A stretch of 64,000 nt of DNA from Variovorax paradoxus (lineage in GTDB: Bacteria > Pseudomonadota > Gammaproteobacteria > Burkholderiales > Burkholderiaceae_C), in the NCBI RefSeq assembly GCF_009755665.1, contig NZ_CP046622.1, positions 1 to 64,000 of the forward strand, given 5' to 3'. The position numbers and the translations under genes are program-made. Of the stretch, positions 1,381-55,778 are shown piece by piece (positions within the stretch are counted from its first letter, which is position 1; every line of letters begins with the position of its first letter). Below the pieces are notes generated by a model, which was not told the DNA's origin, did no database searches, and worked only from the letters and a program-made list of their open reading frames with translations.

Positions 1381-1471
1381 CCCCGGATGTCATCAAGAAA
1401 GCCACCCGCAACAGCGGAGAATGGCGTCTTACAAGCGGATTCAAAGAGATAAAAGAGAAGAGGAAGAAGAC

Positions 1472-34417: not shown

Positions 34418-35863
34418 TCAGTGATGCGATGAAGGCAAAAGCGGCAAGGTGAGCGTGGCCACTGCGCCGCCGCGTGCCGCATTGCCGAGCTCGATGCGCC
34501 CGCGGTGCAGCGCGGCAATCTCTTTCACGAAGGCCAGGCCCAGGCCCGTGCTTTTCTTCTGGCTGTGCGGCCGCGCCAGCGAATAGAACTTCTGAAAAAC
34601 CTTTTCCTGTGCGTAGTCCGGAATGCCCGGTCCGCGGTCGCGCACGGTCACGCGTGCGAGCTTCGAAGTGGTCTCGAGCGTGAGCAGCACCTCGCTGCCC
34701 TGCGGTGAAAAATCGATGGCGTTGTCCAGCAGGTTGCTGACGGCGCGGCGCAGCAGAAACGGATCGCCTTCGGTATTGGCATCGGTGCGAATGTTCACGC
34801 GCACGCCGATGTTGCGCTTGGCCGCGGCAGGCTGCGCGCTGAGGGCGACGTCCTCGATCAGCGAAGCCAGCGCCACCGGCTCGGTGCGATCGAGGCCGCG
34901 CCGTGTTTCGAGTGCGGTGAGCTCCATCATGCGGTCGACGATTTCCTGGATGCGCTGCGTTTCGCGTTCGATGTTCTTCAGGAAGCGCTCGCGCTCCGCA
35001 TGCGGCATCGACGGTTCCTGCAGCAGCTCGGCCGCACCGCGAATCGCCGATAGCGGGCTCTTCACTTCATGCGTGAAGGTCTGCACGTAGTCGGCCACGT
35101 AGTTGCGGCCTGTGAGCGCATCGCGCATTTCACTGAAGCCGGTGCGCACCGCATCGACCGCGCGCCGTGCCATGCGCGAGAGGCTCAATTTTTTCTGGGC
35201 GCGTACCCAGGTCCAGTAGTCCGAGATCAGGCCGAACGGCCTCACCAGCCAGACCGAGACGATGATCGCCAGCAGCAACAGCGCCAGGCCTGAGCCCACA
35301 CCCACCCACAGCGTGCGGGCGCGCGCGTCTTCGACGAACTGGCCGAAGCTCTGCACCGGCTTGCCGACGCTGACCATGCCGACAATCTCGTTGTTCCAGC
35401 GGATCGGCGCGCCCACGTACATGACCGAAGTGCGCGGGTCGCCGTCGACGTCGCGCGAGGTGCGCGCGCCGTACAGCCCCGCGAGCGTGCGGTTCACGTC
35501 GCTCCACTGCGAGTAGTCGGCGCCCAGGTGCCTGCCGAGCGAATCGAACATCACCCGGCCGCTGCGGTCGGTCACGTACACGCGCAGCTCGACGCGGTTC
35601 TTGTGCAGGTTGTAGATCTGGGCCGAGAACTCGCGCGCATACACCGTGCGGAACAGCGGCTCGAGCCGCGCGGTGTTGATGGCCCCCGCGATCACGTCCT
35701 GCTCGACCAGGCTGGCAATCAGCTGCGAGGTTTCGACCAGCGACTCCTCGGCCGATTCGCGGTAGCGCGGGTCGATGTCGGACACCACGCGGTAGAGCAG
35801 GAATGCGATGCCCGCCGTGTAGATCAGCAGGATGCCGATGAAGATTCGCGTGCGCCGGCTCAC
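34418..35863 (-). CDS. creC: Two-component sensor histidine kinase CreC
   Basis: Membrane sensor kinase of 481 residues that phosphorylates CreB. Two N-terminal helices (about 5-25 and 188-208) enclose a periplasmic sensor domain. The dimerisation helix has H265 in QTFTHEVKSPLSAIRG, and the ATPase part has the N box DNAIDFS, the G1 box DRGPGIP and the G2 box KSTGLGLAF. Order and layout match CreC. Its ATG overlaps the stop of creB in an ATGA junction, so the two are translationally coupled. It responds in other species to carbon source and to blocked peptidoglycan synthesis. Confidence 0.93.
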   Translation of the reverse strand: MSRRTRIFIGILLIYTAGIAFLLYRVVSDIDPRYRESAEESLVETSQLIASLVEQDVIAGAINTARLEPLFRTVYAREFSAQIYNLHKNRVELRVYVTDRSGRVMFDSLGRHLGADYSQWSDVNRTLAGLYGARTSRDVDGDPRTSVMYVGAPIRWNNEIVGMVSVGKPVQSFGQFVEDARARTLWVGVGSGLALLLLAIIVSVWLVRPFGLISDYWTWVRAQKKLSLSRMARRAVDAVRTGFSEMRDALTGRNYVADYVQTFTHEVKSPLSAIRGAAELLQEPSMPHAERERFLKNIERETQRIQEIVDRMMELTALETRRGLDRTEPVALASLIEDVALSAQPAAAKRNIGVRVNIRTDANTEGDPFLLRRAVSNLLDNAIDFSPQGSEVLLTLETTSKLARVTVRDRGPGIPDYAQEKVFQKFYSLARPHSQKKSTGLGLAFVKEIAALHRGRIELGNAARGGAVATLTLPLLPSSHH

Positions 35864-36642
35864 GGCGTCTGGGGCAATTCTTCGTTCAACGCGTAGCCAG
35901 TGCCGCGCAGCGTGCGGATCGGCTCCACATCGGGCGCCACGGCCTTGAGCTTGGCGCGCAACGTTTTCACGTGCGCGTCGACCGTGCGGTCGAAGCTGTC
36001 GCTCGCATCGTCCCAGACCAGCTGCAGCAACTCGTCGCGCGTGAAAACACGGCCCGGCCGCTGCACCAGGAGCCGCAGCAGGCCGTATTCGTAGCGCGAA
36101 AGCTCGAGCAGCCGCCCGTAGTAGCGGATTTGCATGCGCTCGTTGTCCAGCGCAAACGGCGTTGCGGAGGGCTGGGAGCCCGCAGGAGCCACCGAACCCG
36201 GATTTTGAGGGGGACCCCCGTTGTTTGTTGCCGCGGGGCCTCCAGGGGCCGCTCGTGCGCTGCGCCGCAGGATGGTGCGCACCCGTGCGACGAGTTCACG
36301 TGGAGAAAACGGCTTGGCAATGTAGTCGTCGGCACCGAGCTCCAGCCCGACCACGCGGTCGATTTCGTCGCTTCTCGCGGTGAGAAACAGCATCGGCACC
36401 TCGGCGCCGCCCTGTGACTGGTTCAGCGCGCGCAAGCGCTTGAAGAGCTCGAATCCATTGAGGTCGGGCAGGCCAACGTCCAGTATGGCCAGTGCCGGCG
36501 GCTCCTGTGCGAACTGCGCGATGGCTTCCTCGGCCGTTGCGCACCAGACCGGCGTGAAGCCATCGCTCTTCAGGACGTATTGCAGCGTGTCGGCAATGCC
36601 CGATTCGTCTTCGGCAATCAGGATCCGGGGTTTGAAACTCAT
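35860..36642 (-). CDS. creB: Two-component response regulator CreB
   Basis: OmpR-family regulator of 260 residues. The receiver has the acidic pocket EDE (11-13), phospho-acceptor D55 and K in AKPFSPREL. After a 35-residue Pro/Gly/Ala-rich linker, longer than usual, the winged-helix domain ends LRGTGYALNEE. It should bind TTCAC-N6-TTCAC boxes like those at 29693. The start at 36642 follows the family N-terminus (MSFKPRILIAEDES); a longer frame from 36708 is rejected. It is the first gene of the creBC operon, next to the origin candidate. Confidence 0.92.
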   Translation of the reverse strand: MSFKPRILIAEDESGIADTLQYVLKSDGFTPVWCATAEEAIAQFAQEPPALAILDVGLPDLNGFELFKRLRALNQSQGGAEVPMLFLTARSDEIDRVVGLELGADDYIAKPFSPRELVARVRTILRRSARAAPGGPAATNNGGPPQNPGSVAPAGSQPSATPFALDNERMQIRYYGRLLELSRYEYGLLRLLVQRPGRVFTRDELLQLVWDDASDSFDRTVDAHVKTLRAKLKAVAPDVEPIRTLRGTGYALNEELPQTP

Positions 36643-36783
36643 CCCCTGGATGTTAGCGAGGGGGCGCAGTCCGGCGAGGCTGGTTTTGTTGCGTGGCGCC
36701 GAGGACACGGCGCGGCCTTTCGCGGTCTTTTTTTCCGGCGCGGCGTGGGCTCTGTATCTTCTTCTTATCTCTCTTATTCAAAT

Positions 36784-36795
36784 TAGTAGTAGTAG
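36784..36795 (+). other. DnaA-trio (four TAG triplets)
   Basis: TAGTAGTAGTAG lies between AT-rich DNA and a GC-rich spacer followed by a DnaA-box-like site. The trio is the single-strand binding element for DnaA; direction and spacing fit. Confidence 0.6.
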
Positions 36796-36801
36796 ATAAG
36801 G

Positions 36802-36833
36802 GCGGCACCTGTCTGTGGACATGCCGCTTTTTT
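36802..36833 (+). terminator. Intrinsic-terminator-like hairpin inside the origin candidate
   Basis: Stem GCGGCA and TGTC pair with GACA and TGCCGC around loop TGTG, with a 2-base bulge, followed by six T. This is a convincing plus-strand terminator shape, but no plus-strand gene lies to its left. It overlaps the DnaA-box-like site. It may end a short untranslated RNA or be part of the origin architecture. Confidence 0.5.
36814..36822 (-). other. DnaA-box-like site
   Basis: TGTGGACAT, the reverse complement of ATGTCCACA, has two mismatches to TTATCCACA but keeps the TCCACA core. It lies 18 bases after the TAG triplets. Confidence 0.4.
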
Positions 36834-36932
36834 CCTTGTGTGACAGTCACTTGTCATACCTCTGTCACTGTGCGCAGCCGCGCTTCCGTGCTGTCGCGCC
36901 AAAAGGAACAACATTGCCGGGCGCGTCCGGCC

Positions 36933-36941
36933 TGTGGATAA
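36933..36941 (-). other. Perfect DnaA box
   Basis: TGTGGATAA, the reverse complement of TTATCCACA, in the creB upstream gap. By base composition such a 9-mer should be rare here. Confidence 0.7.
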
Positions 36942-37109
36942 CCGCCCGCTTGTGCCAGAACTCTCCCCAGAGTTGTCCTTTGACAGGGTTCCGGAATTCT
37001 GCGAAAGACAGTTTCCGGCGCAAGAAATTCATTGCCGCTTATTTAGGCAGACTGTAGATTTGCGTTGCAGATCAAGGACTTAGCTTTCTCCTACAAAGAA
37101 GTGCGAGTG

Positions 37110-37118
37110 TTATCCACA
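37110..37118 (+). other. Perfect DnaA box
   Basis: TTATCCACA in the same gap as the box at 36933 and in the opposite orientation, 92 bases before the next gene start. Confidence 0.7.
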
Positions 37119-37209
37119 GAGTTGCCCAAGCTTTGTGGGGAGAACCGCAGCGGAACCTTCGCGCGCGGCGCCGAACGAACTTTGTCCTTCAACCAGCGGA
37201 ATTTCCAAC

Positions 37210-38172
37210 GTGACACCTACCGAAACCAGGGCCATCGTGACCCTCAGCCTCCTGGCTGCCTTTGTCGACGGCGAAAAGCACGAGCGCGAACGTGCGGAAA
37301 TCAAGCGCATTGCCGAAGGCCTTTCGCAAGCGGACGGCGTGAACCTGCCCACGCTCTACCAGGACGTGCTGATGAAGCGGGTGTCGCTGGCCTCTGTGGC
37401 GGGCGAACTGCAAAGCACGGAATCGAAGCAGCTGGCCTATGAAATGGCGGTGTGCGTGTGCGATGCGGACGGCACGCAATCGGAGGCGGAGCGCATGTTC
37501 CTGGCCGAGGTGCGCACCTCGCTCGGACTCGATGCCTCGGCCGCCCAGTTCTCGCGCCAGGCGGAGGAAATTGCCGCGGTTCCGGTGGCCGCCACCAGTG
37601 CCGCAGCGGCAGCGGCGCCACTGCCCACGTCCGCCGCGGTCGCCGCGTCATCACCCGACAGCGCCGAGCTCGACAAATCCATCCTCAATGCGTCCATCCT
37701 GAACGGCGCGCTCGAGCTGCTGCCGGAAACGCTCTCGACCATGGCGATCATTCCGCTGCAGATGAAGCTGGTCTACCGCATCGGCAAGGCCCATGGCTAT
37801 GAGCTCGACAGCGGCCACATCAAGGATTTTCTGGCGACGGTCGGCGTGGGCCTGACGTCGCAGTACCTCGAGCAGGCCGGGCGCAAGCTGCTTGGCGGCC
37901 TGCTCGGCAAGATGGGTGGCGGCATGCTGCGCGGCCTCGGCAACCAGGCGGTGAGCTCGGGCATGAGCTTTGCCTCGACCTATGCGCTGGGGCACGTGGC
38001 CAAGCGCTACTACGCCGGTGGCCGCACGCTCTCCACGCAGATGCTGAAGGACACCTTCGCGGGCGTGATGCAGGAAGGCAAGGGCCTGCAGACCCAGTAC
38101 CTGCCCGCCATCCAGGAAAAAGCCCGCACGCTCGACGCCGGCAAGGTGCTGTCGCTCGTCAGAGGAGCCTGA
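37210..38172 (+). CDS. TerB-like / DUF697 domain protein
   Basis: A 320-residue protein of unknown function. The N-terminal 110 residues resemble the TerB tellurite-resistance domain (all-helical, with LSLLAAFVDGEKHERERAEI and CVCDADGTQSEAE), and after an Ala/Pro-rich linker the C-terminal part resembles DUF697, with LPETLSTMAIIPLQMKLVYR, glycine-rich near-membrane helices and GLGNQAVSSG. The start is a GTG at 37210; the longer frame from 37135 has a compositionally odd leader. It lies just downstream of the origin candidate and may be driven by a promoter within it. Tellurite resistance itself is not implied. Confidence 0.72.
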   Translation: MTPTETRAIVTLSLLAAFVDGEKHERERAEIKRIAEGLSQADGVNLPTLYQDVLMKRVSLASVAGELQSTESKQLAYEMAVCVCDADGTQSEAERMFLAEVRTSLGLDASAAQFSRQAEEIAAVPVAATSAAAAAAPLPTSAAVAASSPDSAELDKSILNASILNGALELLPETLSTMAIIPLQMKLVYRIGKAHGYELDSGHIKDFLATVGVGLTSQYLEQAGRKLLGGLLGKMGGGMLRGLGNQAVSSGMSFASTYALGHVAKRYYAGGRTLSTQMLKDTFAGVMQEGKGLQTQYLPAIQEKARTLDAGKVLSLVRGA

Positions 38173-38600: not shown

Positions 38601-38791
38601 TGCACCTTGTATCCGGCGTTCTCGATCGCGGCGACGATGTCCTGCCGCGGCTGCGTGCTCAGCACGTCGACATGGCCTGTTTCAAGATCCACCGTGACCT
38701 GCGCCTTGGGGTCGATGGTTTGCACCGCGTTCTGTACCGCGCTCACGCAATGGCCGCAGCTCATGCCCGAGACCTGGAATTTCTGGCTCAT
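38597..38791 (-). CDS. copZ: Copper chaperone CopZ (heavy-metal-associated domain)
   Basis: A 64-residue cytoplasmic HMA protein with the metal-binding M10-x-C12-x-x-C15 motif (MSCGHC). It passes Cu(I) to the ATPase CopA or to CueR. Length is standard for the family. It is the first gene of the minus-strand copZ-cueR operon, opposite copA. Confidence 0.92.
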   Translation of the reverse strand: MSQKFQVSGMSCGHCVSAVQNAVQTIDPKAQVTVDLETGHVDVLSTQPRQDIVAAIENAGYKVQ

Positions 38792-38887
38792 CTTTCTTGC
38801 TCCTGTTGAGAAGTTGAATCAAGGAAGCCGCCAGTTTGAACCCTCTCACGATGTCAATGTCCAGCGCAGGGGCACTGTGCTTTGGGC

Positions 38888-38918
38888 TTGACCTTGCCAT
38901 GATGTGAGACTTTACCTT
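38888..38918 (+). promoter_or_regulatory. Candidate CueR-controlled copA promoter
   Basis: TTGACC (38888-38893) and TACCTT (38913-38918) are separated by 19 bases, the over-long spacer typical of MerR-family promoters. The spacer begins TTGCCATGATG. An ATG at 38925 falls about where transcription would start, which is why I place the copA start at 38958. A second similar signal (TTGACATCGTGAGAGGG, minus strand, 38841-38857) may serve copZ. Confidence 0.55.
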
Positions 38919-38957
38919 CGGTGCATGGACAATCTGCAGCACTACCCCTCGAACCCC

Positions 38958-41165
38958 ATGAGCACCCTGGATCTTTCTGTTGGCGGCATGACCTGCGCAT
39001 CGTGCGTGATGCGCGTGGAACGCGCGCTCAAGAGCGTTCCCGGCGTGCAGGACGTGAGCGTGAACCTGGCCACCGAGTCGGCCCGCGTGGTGGCGGCCGA
39101 TGGCGAAGACATGGATGCGCGCCTGCGCCGCGCGGTGCGCGCCGCGGGCTACGAGCCGCGCGCGGCCGGCAATGCGGCCGACGAAGCCGCGGCGGTATCG
39201 CCCTGGCACGGCTTCGGCCCCGTGGGCATCGGTCTCTTGCTCTCGATTCCGTTGCTGGCACCCATGCTGGGACAACCCTTCGGCCAGGACTGGATGCTTG
39301 CGCCGTGGGCGCAGTTGCTGCTGGCCGCGCCGGTGCAGTTCTGGCTTGGCGCGCGTTTCTACCGTGCGGGCTGGCATGCCGCAAAGGCCCGCACCGGCAA
39401 CATGGATCTGCTGGTGGCGCTCGGTACCAGCGCGGCCTTCGGGTTGTCGCTCTGGCTCTGGTGGCGCGCGGCCACGGGCGACCATGCGGGGCATGGCGCT
39501 GTGCCGCACCTGTACTTCGAGGCCTCGGCCGTGGTGATCACGCTGGTGCTGCTCGGAAAGTGGCTGGAGGCGCGCGCCAAGCGGCAGGCCACTTCCGCCA
39601 TTCGCGCGCTGCAGCAACTGCGGCCCGAAACTGCGCACCTCGTCGGCCAGCGCGGTGAAACCGATGTGCCACTGGCGGAAGTGATGGTGGGCGACCGGCT
39701 TGCAGTGCGGCCGGGCGAACGTGTGCCGGCCGATGCGCACGTGATCGAAGGGCGTTCCGAAGTCGATGAGTCGATGCTCACCGGCGAGCCGCTGCCGGTG
39801 GCCAAGGGCCCCGGCGATTCGTTGACGGGCGGCGCCGTCAACGGCGATGGCCGCATGGTCGTCGAAGTGAGTGCCGTGGGTGCCGAAAGCGTGCTGGCCC
39901 GCATCATCCGCCTGGTCGAAGACGCGCAGGCCGCGAAGGCGCCAATCCAGCGGCTGGTGGACCAGGTTGCGGCGGTGTTCGTGCCCGTGGTGCTGTTGAT
40001 CGCACTGGCCACGCTGGCGGGCTGGCTGCTCGCGGGCACCGGCATCGAGATTGCAATGATCCACGCGGTGGCCGTGCTGGTCATCGCGTGTCCTTGTGCG
40101 CTGGGCCTCGCGACGCCCGTCGCGGTGATGGCCGGAACTGGTGTTGCGGCGCGCCGCGGCATTCTCATCAAGGATGCGCGCGCGCTGGAACTTGCGCACA
40201 AGGTCGACATGGTGGCTTTCGACAAGACCGGCACGCTGACCCTGGGCCGACCGGTGCTGACCGCGCTGATTCCGGCGGGAGACCCTGGCGATGAAGCCGG
40301 ACTGCTGGCAACGGCTGCCAGCTTGCAAGGCGGCAGCGAACATCCGCTCGCGCGTGCCGTGTCGGCGGCTGCGGCGCAGCGCGGCTTGCAGGTGCCGTCC
40401 TTGGCCGCCATGCAGGCGATGCCGGGCCGCGGTGTGCGCGGTGAAGTGAATGGCGAGAGTTGGGCCATTGCAAGCCTGCGCTGGTGCGCCGAACTGGGCG
40501 TTGTTCCCGACGCTGCAGCGGTCGAGCGCCTGCATGCGCAAGGTGCCACCGTGTCGGCGCTGCTGCGCTTCGATGCGGCGGGCGTTGCGCAGGTACAGGC
40601 GCTGCTGGCCTTTGCCGACGAGCCGAAGCCCGAGGCTGCGCAAGCGGTTCGCACCTTGCGCGAAAGGGGCCTGCGCGTGGTGATGATCTCGGGCGACAAC
40701 GAGCGTGCCGCACAAGCCATGGCGGCGCGGCTTGGCATTGCCGCCCCGGATGTGCGTGCCGACGTTCTGCCGGCCGACAAGGCGGCACAGGTCGGTGCAC
40801 TGCGCCACGACGGCCATGTGGTCGCAATGGTCGGCGATGGTGCGAACGACGCACCCGCATTGGCGGCCGCCGATGTGGGCATTGCAATGGCACCTTCGGG
40901 CGGTGGTACCGACGTGGCCATGGAGGCCGCGGGTATCACGCTGATGCGCGGCGACCTGGCGCTGGTGGCCCAGGCGCTCGACCTTTCGGCACGCACGGTG
41001 GCAAAGATCAGGCAGAACCTCTTCTGGGCCTTTGCCTACAACGTGGCCGGCATTCCGCTCGCGGCCTTCGGGCTGCTGAGCCCCGTGGTGGCGGGTGCGG
41101 CCATGGCGCTGTCGAGCGTCAGCGTGATGGCCAATGCGCTGCTGTTGCGGCGCTGGAGGCCTTGA
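38958..41165 (+). CDS. copA: Copper-exporting P-type ATPase CopA
   Basis: P1B-type ATPase of 735 residues that exports Cu(I) across the inner membrane. It has one N-terminal HMA domain (GGMTCASC, C13 and C16), eight predicted helices, the membrane metal site C378-P-C380 in IACPCALG, phosphorylated D422 in [19 protein letters not shown] and [17 protein letters not shown] in the nucleotide domain. The C-terminal [16 protein letters not shown] is the copper-type motif. An ATG at 38925 would be almost leaderless, so I choose 38958. It is divergent from copZ-cueR. Confidence 0.95.
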
Positions 41166-52113: not shown

Positions 52114-53001
52114 ATGCACATCTCCCACATCGAGGCGGAACTCGGCTACGAAGTCAGCGCGCCCGCGCACATGCAACTCAACATCGAGGCTGCACAGGCC
52201 GGCTCGCAAGCCGTGATCAGCGAAGCGCTGACCATCGAGCCGCCGACCGAGGTGCAGGTGTACTGCGACGAGTCGAGCGGCAATCGCTTCGTGCGCTTCG
52301 ATGCGCAGCCTGGCCCGCTGAAGATCCGCTACAAGGCGACCGTGCAACGCAGGCAGGTCGACGTGCCGCTCGATCTGCAGGAGGTGCCGGTCAACCAGGT
52401 GCCGAACGAAATCCTCCACTACATGATGCCGTCGCGCTACTGCGAGTCGGACCTGATGTCGCGTTGCGCGCAGCAGCTCTTTGGCGATCTTGCGCCGGGC
52501 ATCGGCCGGGTGCAGGCCATCGTGGACTGGATCTACGACAGCATCACTTATGAGCCAGGCAGCAGCGACTCGACGACGACCGCACGCGAAGTGTTTGTGG
52601 AGCGCGCGGGCGTGTGCCGCGACTTTGCGCACCTGGGCATTACCTTCTGCCGCGCGCTGAACATTCCGGCGCGGCTGGTGGTGGGCTACGTGTGGTTCGA
52701 CGAACCGCCGCAGGATTTCCATGCTGTCTTCGAAGCCTGGCTTGGCGATCGATGGGTGCTGTTCGACCCCACGCGCATGGCGCCGGTCGACCGGCTGGTA
52801 CGCGTGGGCACCGGGCGCGACGCCAAGGACGTGGCCTTCTGCACCATATTCGGCGCCGTGGCCATGACAGGCAAGACGCTCGTGATTCGCGAGCTGCAGG
52901 ACGAGAGCGTGGCGCCGCCGGCCGAGCCCGAGCCCACGGGGGCGCTGGTGGGCATCGAAAAGCCGGTGCCGGTGGTGGAGCTGGCCGCCGCTGCCGATTA
53001 G
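52114..53001 (+). CDS. Transglutaminase-like cysteine protease family protein
   Basis: A 295-residue protein with an N-terminal beta domain and a transglutaminase core. The catalytic triad reads C168 in AGVCRDFAHLG, H203 in FHAVFEAWLG and D218 in LFDPTRM. Bacterial members are often amidases or proteases acting on peptides in the cytoplasm. No signal peptide is seen. Single gene with weak ribosome signal; the next gene on this strand is mnmG after 180 bases. Confidence 0.87.
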   Translation: MHISHIEAELGYEVSAPAHMQLNIEAAQAGSQAVISEALTIEPPTEVQVYCDESSGNRFVRFDAQPGPLKIRYKATVQRRQVDVPLDLQEVPVNQVPNEILHYMMPSRYCESDLMSRCAQQLFGDLAPGIGRVQAIVDWIYDSITYEPGSSDSTTTAREVFVERAGVCRDFAHLGITFCRALNIPARLVVGYVWFDEPPQDFHAVFEAWLGDRWVLFDPTRMAPVDRLVRVGTGRDAKDVAFCTIFGAVAMTGKTLVIRELQDESVAPPAEPEPTGALVGIEKPVPVVELAAAAD

Positions 53002-53004
53002 GCC

Positions 53005-53013
53005 TTATCCACA
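53005..53013 (+). other. Perfect DnaA box upstream of mnmG
   Basis: TTATCCACA lies in the AT-rich gap between the transglutaminase and mnmG genes. It is the third perfect box in the window, all in intergenic DNA. DnaA may regulate mnmG or be titrated here. Confidence 0.6.
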
Positions 53014-53023
53014 CTTAGTTGTT

Positions 53024-53042
53024 TGCTATCAAATATATAGCA
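53024..53042. repeat. Short palindrome TGCTAT-N7-ATAGCA
   Basis: Perfect 6-base arms around CAAATAT, 11 bases after the DnaA box. Same form as the palindromes at 13303 and 14652. Confidence 0.55.
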
Positions 53043-53181
53043 GACACGAGGCGGTGAGCGCGGGTCCGAGGCGTTTCAAAGCGATTAACCACGTTGCCCC
53101 CATTCCAGGCGCAAAGCAGCACCCCCGATTAAAATTGGTGCCCCCTTTGCGCAGCGCACGCGTCAGTGCGCCCCCTCTCTC

Positions 53182-55140
53182 ATGCTGTATCCCGAAGAAT
53201 TCGATGTCATCGTCGTTGGCGGTGGCCATGCCGGCACCGAAGCCGCGCTTGCTGCTGCCCGCATGGGCGCCAAGACGCTGCTGCTCTCCCACAACATCGA
53301 GACGTTGGGGCAGATGAGCTGCAATCCATCGATCGGCGGTATTGGCAAGGGCCACCTGGTGAAAGAGGTCGATGCGCTTGGCGGCGCCATGGCCATCGCG
53401 ACGGATGAGGCGGGCATTCAGTTTCGCATTCTCAATTCGAGCAAGGGCCCGGCCGTTCGCGCGACCCGCGCCCAGGCCGACCGCGTCTTGTACAAGGCCG
53501 CGATCCGCCGCCGCCTGGAGAACCAGCCGAACCTGAGCCTGTTCCAGCAGGCGGTCGACGACCTGATGGTGGAGGGCGATCGGGTGGTGGGTGCCGTTAC
53601 GCAGGTGGGCATTGCCTTTCGCGCGCGCACCGTGGTGCTTACTGCCGGGACTTTTCTCGATGGCCGCATCCACGTCGGCCTCGACAATTACCAGGCCGGG
53701 CGCGCGGGCGACCCGCCGGCCATCAGCCTTTCGGCGCGGCTCAAGGAGCTGAAGCTGCCTCAGGGTCGCCTCAAGACCGGTACACCGCCGCGACTCGACG
53801 GCCGCACCATCGACTTTTCGAAGTGCACCGAACAACCGGGCGACGGCATGCCGGGTGGGGCAGGGCCGATGCCCGTGTTCAGCTTCATGGGCCGGGTCGA
53901 CATGCACCCGCAGCAAATGGCCTGCTGGATCACCCATACCAACGAGCGCACGCATGACATCATTCGCTCCGGCTTCGACCGCAGCCCGATGTTCACCGGC
54001 AAGATCGACGGCGTCGGTCCGCGCTACTGCCCGAGCGTGGAAGACAAGATCAACCGCTTTGCCGACAAGGAAAGCCATCAGATCTTTCTCGAGCCCGAAG
54101 GCCTGACGACCAACGAGTACTACCCGAACGGGATTTCGACCAGCCTGCCGTTTGACATCCAGTACCAACTCGTTCGCTCGATGCCCGGGCTGGAGAACGC
54201 CCACATCCTGCGGCCAGGCTATGCCATCGAGTACGACTACTTCGATCCGCGCGAGCTCAAGAGCAGCTTCGAGACCCGTGCAATCAAGGGCCTGTTCTTT
54301 GCCGGCCAGATCAACGGCACCACCGGCTACGAAGAGGCCGCCGCCCAGGGTTTGTTTGCCGGCATCAATGCCGCGCTTCAATGCCGGGGCGACGATGCCT
54401 GGCTGCCGCGCCGCGATGAAGCGTACTTGGGCGTACTGGTCGACGACCTCATTACAAAGGGCGTGACCGAGCCGTACCGCATGTTCACCAGCCGCGCGGA
54501 GTTTCGGCTGCAGCTGCGCGAGGACAACGCCGACATGCGCCTGACCGAAGCAGGGCGCAAGCTCGGCCTGGTCGGCGACGAGCAATGGGACGCTTTCAGC
54601 CGCAAGCGCGATGCTGTTTCACGTGAAACACAACGCCTCAAGTCGATCTGGGTGAATCCGCGCAACCTTCCGGCGGCAGAGTCGGAGCGCGTGCTCGGCA
54701 AGGCCATCGAGCATGAATACAACCTAGCCGACCTGCTGCGCCGGCCTGATGTGAGCTACCAAACATTGATGTCGCTGGACGGGGGAAAGTACAGCGCGGC
54801 CTCGGCACTCAGCGAAACGGAAATCGAGCAGATCGAAATCTCAGCGAAGTATTCCGGCTACATCGAGCGCCAGCACGACGAAGTAGAGCGCGCCGCGCAC
54901 TTCGAGAACCTGCGGCTGCCGGCGGATTTCGACTACAGCCAAGTCAAGGCACTGAGCTTCGAGGTTCGCCAGAAGCTCGACAAGCACCGGCCCGAAACGC
55001 TGGGCTTGGCTTCGCGTATCTCGGGCGTAACGCCAGCTGCAATTTCGCTGTTGATGATCCATCTGCGAAAGGGCGGCCACAAAGCGTTCAACCGCGACGC
55101 CGCCCCGGAAGCGACCGCAGAATCGCAGTCCGCCCAATGA
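53182..55140 (+). CDS. mnmG: tRNA uridine 5-carboxymethylaminomethyl modification enzyme MnmG
   Basis: FAD-dependent enzyme of 652 residues that with MnmE modifies the wobble uridine of several tRNAs. Motifs: FAD-binding [10 protein letters not shown] (13-22), [30 protein letters not shown] and the C-terminal all-helical domain. Its start codon follows a CT-rich stretch with no strong ribosome site. A perfect parS site lies within its coding sequence at 54615. It overlaps rsmG by four bases (ATGA) and is the first gene of the mnmG-rsmG-lysE-parA region. Confidence 0.97.
54615..54630. other. parS site inside mnmG (perfect consensus)
   Basis: TGTTTCACGTGAAACA is exactly the 16-base ParB-binding consensus and lies inside mnmG, where it encodes VSRET within [11 protein letters not shown]. 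ParB spreading from here would organise the origin region for segregation. It is 3.4 kb upstream of parB. Confidence 0.93.
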
Positions 55141-55778
55141 GCGCGCCCATCGAAACGCTGCGCCAAGGCGCGGCAGCCTCGGGCAGCGCTTTGTCCGACA
55201 AGCAGGCGGAACAGCTGTTGGCTTACGGCACGCTCATGCTCAAGTGGAACAAGGTCTACAACCTAACGGCCTTGCGCGACCCTGCCAGCGTGTTGACACA
55301 CCATCTGCTCGACAGCCTGGCGGCGGTAATGCCGCTGCAGCGCGAGTGGGCAGGGAAGGGGAAACTACTCGACGTCGGATCCGGCGGCGGGTTGCCGGGC
55401 GTGGTGATCGCCATCATGCGGCCGGATCTCGATGTGAGCTGCCTCGACGCGGTTGCCAAGAAGGCGGCCTTCGTTCAACAGGTGGCTGCCGAGCTTGAGC
55501 TGCCCAATCTGCGCGGCCTTCATGCGCGGGTCGAGTCGCTCACCGGCAGCTACGAGGTCATCAGCTCCCGGGCCTTTGCCTCGCTTCCGGATTTCTTCAA
55601 CGGATCGAAACACCTCCTGGCTTCCGGCGGTATCTGGCTGGCCATGAAAGGCAAGGTGCCGAGCGATGAGCTTGCCGTGCTGCCGGAAGGCGTTGCAGTG
55701 TTTCACGTGGAACAACTGGCGGTTCCGGGTCTGGATGCCGAGCGCTGCATCGTCTGGGCGCGCAAAGAAACGGCCTGA
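55137..55778 (+). CDS. rsmG: 16S rRNA (guanine527-N7)-methyltransferase RsmG
   Basis: A SAM-dependent methyltransferase of 213 residues that methylates G527 of 16S rRNA; loss gives low-level streptomycin resistance in other species. Motifs: [20 protein letters not shown] for SAM and the family lysine-rich core. It starts with ATGAGC overlapping the mnmG stop (ATGA). It carries a near-perfect parS site near its 3' end. Confidence 0.95.
55699..55714. other. Second parS site inside rsmG
   Basis: TGTTTCACGTGGAACA differs from the consensus at one position (G for A). It encodes part of VAVFHVEQL. Together with the site at 54615 it makes a pair 1.1 kb apart, both within coding sequence. Confidence 0.85.

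Follow-up and report, generated by a model that had tools for sequence, protein, structure and literature searches.

An origin-type element in the creB-terB gap of Variovorax, homologous to the dnaA-dnaN intergenic region of its relatives, is the probable chromosomal oriC

The intergenic element located at 36.8 kb is very probably the chromosomal oriC of Variovorax, moved there from the dnaA-dnaN gap, where its homologue sits in many relatives. This is supported by the presence and conservation of the element, its homology, its single copy, its absence from the genome's own dnaA-dnaN gap, the stages found in congeners and a skew switch in one relative. A sequence-only reading of the same DNA had placed a candidate oriC here, away from dnaA. 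That reading is very likely right about the site, and the support for it comes mainly from homology to the relatives' dnaA-dnaN gap element. What has been newly recognised, judging by sequence comparison, is that the site appears to carry, at a new location, the origin element that belongs to the family's dnaA-dnaN gap.

The window comprises the first 64 kb of a genome that consists of one contig (5,574,400 bp) and has Variovorax as its nearest named relatives. Genus and family are GTDB ranks, named here Variovorax and Comamonadaceae (wide sense), and G handles denote genomes. The core of the element was described by a sequence profile, R1, built from 30 sequences, the window among them.

Composition and conservation of the element

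The candidate origin lies between a response regulator gene and a gene for a TerB-domain protein (Table 1). The name creB of the former was taken from the sequence-only reading and is assumed here, the predicted start of this gene being provisional. The latter had been read as TerB/DUF697, of which Pfam retained TerB and not DUF697 (DUF533 scored below its cut-off).

Table 1. Features of the candidate origin and of its surroundings in the 64-kb window
Feature	Position	Strand	Remarks
dnaA	1-1380	+	Pfam DnaA domains; gene starts at base 1
dnaA-dnaN gap	1381-1420		40 bp, without the element
Response regulator gene, creB-like	35860-36708	-	Pfam Response_reg and Trans_reg_C; left of the candidate origin
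Putative oriC core element	36757-36986	+	R1 match 36759-36986; homology to relatives' dnaA-dnaN gap
Putative unwinding tract, low-GC, pyrimidine-rich	36757-36796	+	GC 0.28; similar tract in the 30-sequence alignment
Four TAG triplets, DnaA-trio-like	36784-36795	+	32/32 Variovorax; exactly TAGx4 in 21/30 family sequences
Spacer, triplets to proximal box	36796-36813		18 nt
DnaA-box-like site ATGTCCACA	36814-36822	-	2 mismatches; TGTGGA core in 24/30 family sequences
Degenerate IHF-like site TGACAGTCACTTG	36841-36853	+	Commonest form in relatives TATCAAGCACTTG, 6/30
Perfect DnaA box TTATCCACA	36933-36941	-	30/32 Variovorax; 23/30 family sequences
Degenerate box, other orientation, CTCTCCCCAG	36961-36970	+	Commonest in relatives CTATCCCCAG, 8/30
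Second IHF-like site GATCAAGGACTTA	37070-37082	+	1 mismatch to WATCAANNNNTTR; ATCAAnnACTT conserved in Variovorax alignment
Perfect DnaA box TTATCCACA	37110-37118	+	30/32 Variovorax; outside the family core
TerB-domain protein gene	37210-38172	+	Pfam PF05099; right of the candidate origin

Most of the motifs described in the sequence-only reading were found again. The pyrimidine- and AT-rich stretch spans 36753-36800 with a GC of 0.27, and a GC as low as that of 36757-36796 was reached by 56 of the 63,960 overlapping 40-mers of the window, that one counted. The four TAG triplets were confirmed at 36784-36795; a scan of 1.66 Mb of the genome for TAGTAGTAG on both strands returned seven separate places, with a run of four at 36784-36795 only. 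The box-like site (36814, two mismatches) and the two perfect boxes (36933 and 37110) were also verified. The “GC-rich spacer” (36797-36813) did not stand, its 65% GC being about the window average. The intergenic region thus described holds a conserved cluster of two perfect and one two-mismatch DnaA boxes, adjoined by an AT-rich stretch (GC 0.27-0.28 over 40-48 bp), the putative unwinding element. Perfect boxes number 13 chromosome-wide and 10 in a reversed-letter control, so that boxes alone are not enriched and prove nothing; the unusual feature is the presence of two perfect boxes within 177 bp beside the TAG run.

The R1 match in the window scored 158 bits (E 3e-46), the window itself being one of the 30 sequences that built the profile, and the match at 37101-37127 was at chance level (2.4 bits, E 3.9). 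An exact IHF consensus, WATCAANNNNTTR, lies between the boxes in 12 of the 30 family sequences; it is absent from between the boxes of the window, where the IHF-like site is degenerate. The further site at 37070-37082 may, to judge by its sequence, function as an IHF-type site.

The conservation of these motifs was followed in a base set of 80 loci, 51 of which bear Variovorax names. A profile match near terB was obtained in 37 of the 80 loci and in 33 of the 51 Variovorax-named ones (31 at the window's place and 2 as arrays). The window and the 31 loci, chosen because the profile matched just upstream of terB, formed the Variovorax alignment of 32 sequences. The sequence-only reading had made its candidate depend on the triplets and boxes being kept in close relatives, and no such loss was seen where the element is present at this site (TAGx4 identical in 32/32, the boxes at 36933 and 37110 each in 30/32). 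This held for the loci with the element; near terB, the element is missing from the other 18 of the 51 Variovorax-named loci. The conservation across the alignment argues against a chance origin of the motif set.

The two arrays (L124 7093-9750, Variovorax sp. UMC13; L127 7015-9748, V. boronicumulans Xaverov 112) comprise five element matches each, about 490-730 bp apart, and some of these copies, including in both cases the one nearest terB, are without the low-GC tract and the triplets. In Xenophilus and other relatives (L146, L153, L160 and L164), the element or elements lie on the far side of terB, and hence the terB neighbourhood has held the element on either side.

By analogy with origins studied elsewhere (excerpts of PMC8287927 and PMC6669920; IHF consensus from an excerpt of PMC5742627), DnaA would bind the boxes at 36933 and 36814 (and 37110), with a protein of the IHF/HU type perhaps bending the DNA. 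Starting at the proximal box, DnaA would spread over the TAG triplets, and the low-GC tract would open, with the helicase being loaded there. We infer from this scheme that DnaA and IHF binding, unwinding and firing would take place at the element.

Homology to the dnaA-dnaN gap and stages of relocation

A DNA search with the gap as query gave matches in 51 of 150 family genomes, the source genome included. Flanking genes were inspected for 30 loci among the matches listed: dnaA and dnaN border 20 of them, terB/creB or a different gene of the window borders 4, and beside the remaining 6 none of the 13 window proteins used was seen. The core of about 230 bp shows homology with copies from the dnaA-dnaN gap of other genera (E down to 1e-27), and its identity to the gap copies of congeners is 73-79%. 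The 30-sequence alignment has in common the low-GC tract, the TAG triplets, the TGTGGA proximal box (24 sequences) and the IHF-like site (12 exact), together with a TGTGGATAA box (23/30) and a CTATCCCCAG-like site. In the relatives' dnaA-dnaN gap, the low-GC end points toward dnaN and the boxes toward dnaA.

R1 matched 388 of 397 family genomes (completeness of at least 90%, a count made under stricter filters); all nine that lacked a match are draft assemblies of 80-680 contigs. Within the genus it matched 39 of 41 genomes. At the level of the order, 34 of 120 genomes matched, 4 of them from the family and the remainder weakly. The 5.57-Mb source chromosome gave a single R1 match at E <= 0.001. 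These sequence comparisons support that the gap holds what appears to be the family's origin-type element, a homologue of the relatives' dnaA-dnaN intergenic region.

The element of the source genome lies about 35 kb from dnaA and is absent from the genome's own dnaA-dnaN gap. Its position was surveyed in 40 genomes (39 one-contig genomes and G378, with two contigs; eight further one-contig genomes were left out). A copy directly after dnaA was found in 13 of them (in G247 across the record ends), and in 26 no copy adjoins dnaA, the distance to the nearest one ranging from 16 kb in G128 to 300 kb in G225. Closed genomes in which the distance exceeds 100 kb also include G290, G015, G079 and G250. 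Two or three copies are present in 21 of the 40. In G121, one of the two elements sits directly upstream of dnaA across the record ends (G121:C1:4936247-4936462, 219 bp before the record end), which adds a third type of location to the dnaA-dnaN gap and the distant sites; the other G121 copy lies 13 kb on. A dnaA-dnaN gap carrying the element measures 166-760 bp (48 relative loci, with some genomes counted twice), and those without it, measured in four genomes, 40 (source), 44 (G072), 88 (G225) and 31 bp (G351). The 40-bp gap of the source genome is presumably the emptied ancestral site.

Intermediate arrangements were found within the genus. One match, in the dnaA-dnaN gap, was obtained for G532 and G535. 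G546 and G548 combine a dnaA-dnaN gap copy with a second one about 30 kb downstream in opposite orientation, and G550 has a gap copy and a second one on the opposite side of dnaA, at 34 kb. The second sites of G546 and G548 adjoin a relative of the ORF at 38682-40817 of the window and a response regulator of 29% identity; of the two genomes, G548 alone carries part of the creB-like gene (81% identity), at 1.2 kb from the second copy. Beside the second copy of G550, a search with 20 window proteins found none of them. Duplication followed by loss of the dnaA-side copy would be the simplest history. Inverted element pairs about 2-29 kb apart occur in G351, G299, G265, G132, G237 and G324, which could make inversions at the origin more likely.

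A wider proposal, which we regard as possible rather than probable, is that the family oriC behaves as a copyable module. It would duplicate in tandem or to places tens to hundreds of kb away, often inverted, two or three full copies would be common and more than one may fire, and loss on the dnaA side would fix the new location, a course that would be visible within Variovorax.

Strand asymmetry and alternative explanations

Several strand-asymmetry measures were applied to the source genome. Interpolated GC skew had minima near +300 and -160 kb, and the 7-mer skew near 92-116 kb (66 of 100 held-out 10-kb blocks right). The GGGNAGGG octamers switch between 2.8 and 2.9 Mb, at neither candidate origin. 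The 80 kb to the left of dnaA (G000:C1:5494401-5574400) contain forward octamers only (8:0), and the 20 kb preceding them 0:4; the forward stretch lies where the left replichore is expected and fits neither dnaA nor the creB-terB gap. The four-fold-site statistic was -13.0 for 0-36.75 kb and +7.5 for 36.75-64 kb, which immediately around 36.8 kb agrees in sign with an origin there. It was set aside because its signs were wrong farther away: -200 to -100 kb (+12.1), -100 to 0 kb (+4.0), 64-164 kb (-1.1) and 164-264 kb (-24.2). Localisation of the origin within its own genome by these four measures was rejected as too weak or contradictory near the origin.

GC skew was also analysed in three relatives. 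The best GC-skew change point of G072, in a sample of 400 kb from its first 570 kb, fell at 397.5 kb, with elements at 394.6 and 398.8 kb and dnaA 260 kb away at 134 kb. The log-likelihood was 8.6 better at the element than at dnaA, and the bootstrap interval is wide (257-463 kb) and excludes dnaA. In G225, the best change point (822.5 kb) fell at neither candidate and the next at 677.5 kb, with the element at 672.7 kb and dnaA at 972 kb; the element was ahead of dnaA by an lnL of 2.2, which is weak support (interval 528-1068 kb). G351 was sampled sparsely, in 16 stretches of 10 kb; its skew turns in the vicinity of dnaA (4.45 Mb) and, to a lesser extent, at the element located at 4.615 Mb. 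This either counts against an origin at the element or reflects a recent move or inversion.

The G351 skew is one of the observations that would suit an active origin still beside dnaA, in the rpmH-dnaA gap, with the creB-terB element being only a DnaA-binding regulator. We consider this unlikely. The 700 bp before dnaA do contain three box-like sites, at -109 (perfect), -59 (one mismatch) and -293 (two mismatches), and since one of the two G121 copies sits directly before dnaA, this side can hold an origin. However, boxes before dnaA also fit dnaA autoregulation, and the G072 skew follows the element and not dnaA. The sequence-only reading had pointed to a comparison with this region, where boxes occur but the 700 bp hold no TAG run and the 20 kb upstream of dnaA in the source genome gave no R1 match. 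An origin upstream of mnmG (gidA), as in E. coli, deserves hardly any credence. A perfect box (53005-53013) does lie just upstream of mnmG (53182), with parS nearby, but 52701-53200 holds one perfect and one two-mismatch box and no TAG run, and R1 has no match upstream of mnmG. The sites that we take to be parS, from its consensus, are at 54615 and 55699, about 18-19 kb from the element: a perfect palindrome (54615-54630) inside mnmG and a one-mismatch copy (55699-55714) inside a gidB-type gene. They fit an origin in the neighbourhood without choosing between sites. A dif consensus gave no match.

It is also conceivable, at a very low probability, that the element resembles datA or DARS and titrates or resets DnaA rather than firing. 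datA too combines DnaA boxes and an IHF site in an intergenic region (PMC5742627, in excerpt), and some array copies have neither tract nor triplets. Against this, one would hardly expect titration of DnaA to depend on a low-GC tract and on triplets that do not vary, the home site of the element is the dnaA-dnaN gap, which is the unwinding region in B. subtilis (excerpt of PMC6669920), and the element is kept in 388 of 397 genomes. An oriC relocated from the dnaA-dnaN gap to the creB-terB gap is the reading that we prefer.

Relation to known origins and implications

The excerpted text of PMC6669920 places the unwinding region of B. subtilis oriC in the dnaA-dnaN gap and describes E. coli oriC as not proximal to dnaA. 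The element has the order and polarity of the B. subtilis incC/basal unwinding system, namely boxes, spacer, TAG triplets and low-GC tract, and, as in B. subtilis, the relatives' homologue lies in the dnaA-dnaN gap with the tract nearest dnaN. It differs in the 18-nt spacer and the one weak proximal box of the window in place of the pair #6/#7, in the IHF-like site of part of the family and in its place away from dnaA in the source genome. The published search rule for the basal unwinding system asks for a DnaA box with up to 2 mismatches within 16 bp of the triplets (PMC8287927, in excerpt). The rule also asks for at least three NAN triplets, which TAGx4 supplies; the box at 36814-36822 is 18 bp away, and since the spacer exceeds 16 nt the element was not filed as a member. 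By analogy, it may nevertheless work like a basal unwinding system.

With E. coli oriC, the element shares the location away from dnaA and, in part of the family, the order of tract, box, IHF-like site and further boxes; unlike it, the site is creB-terB and not next to mnmG, and TAG triplets are present. Both comparisons, with B. subtilis and with E. coli, are of layout. The putative double origins of DoriC (Gao 2015, PMC4403523, in excerpt) also involve more than one origin-like element per chromosome, as found here in many relatives. They differ in that the present copies match one profile and recur across the family, and the source genome has one. Among the titles and abstract openings listed, none concerned a relocated or duplicated origin in Variovorax or Comamonadaceae, which does not prove its absence from print.

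For 26 of the 40 genomes placed, a record that starts at dnaA would begin at a distance of 16 to 300 kb from the likely origin. According to the excerpted text of a 2015 paper, there was no evidence of a bacterial chromosome ever using two functional origins (PMC4403523). Firing of both copies in the two-copy chromosomes, should it occur, would bear on that statement. Origin relocation is, in our judgement, hard to study because intermediates are rarely seen. As members of a single genus have the element at the old site, at two sites or at a distant site only, origin relocation becomes directly testable.
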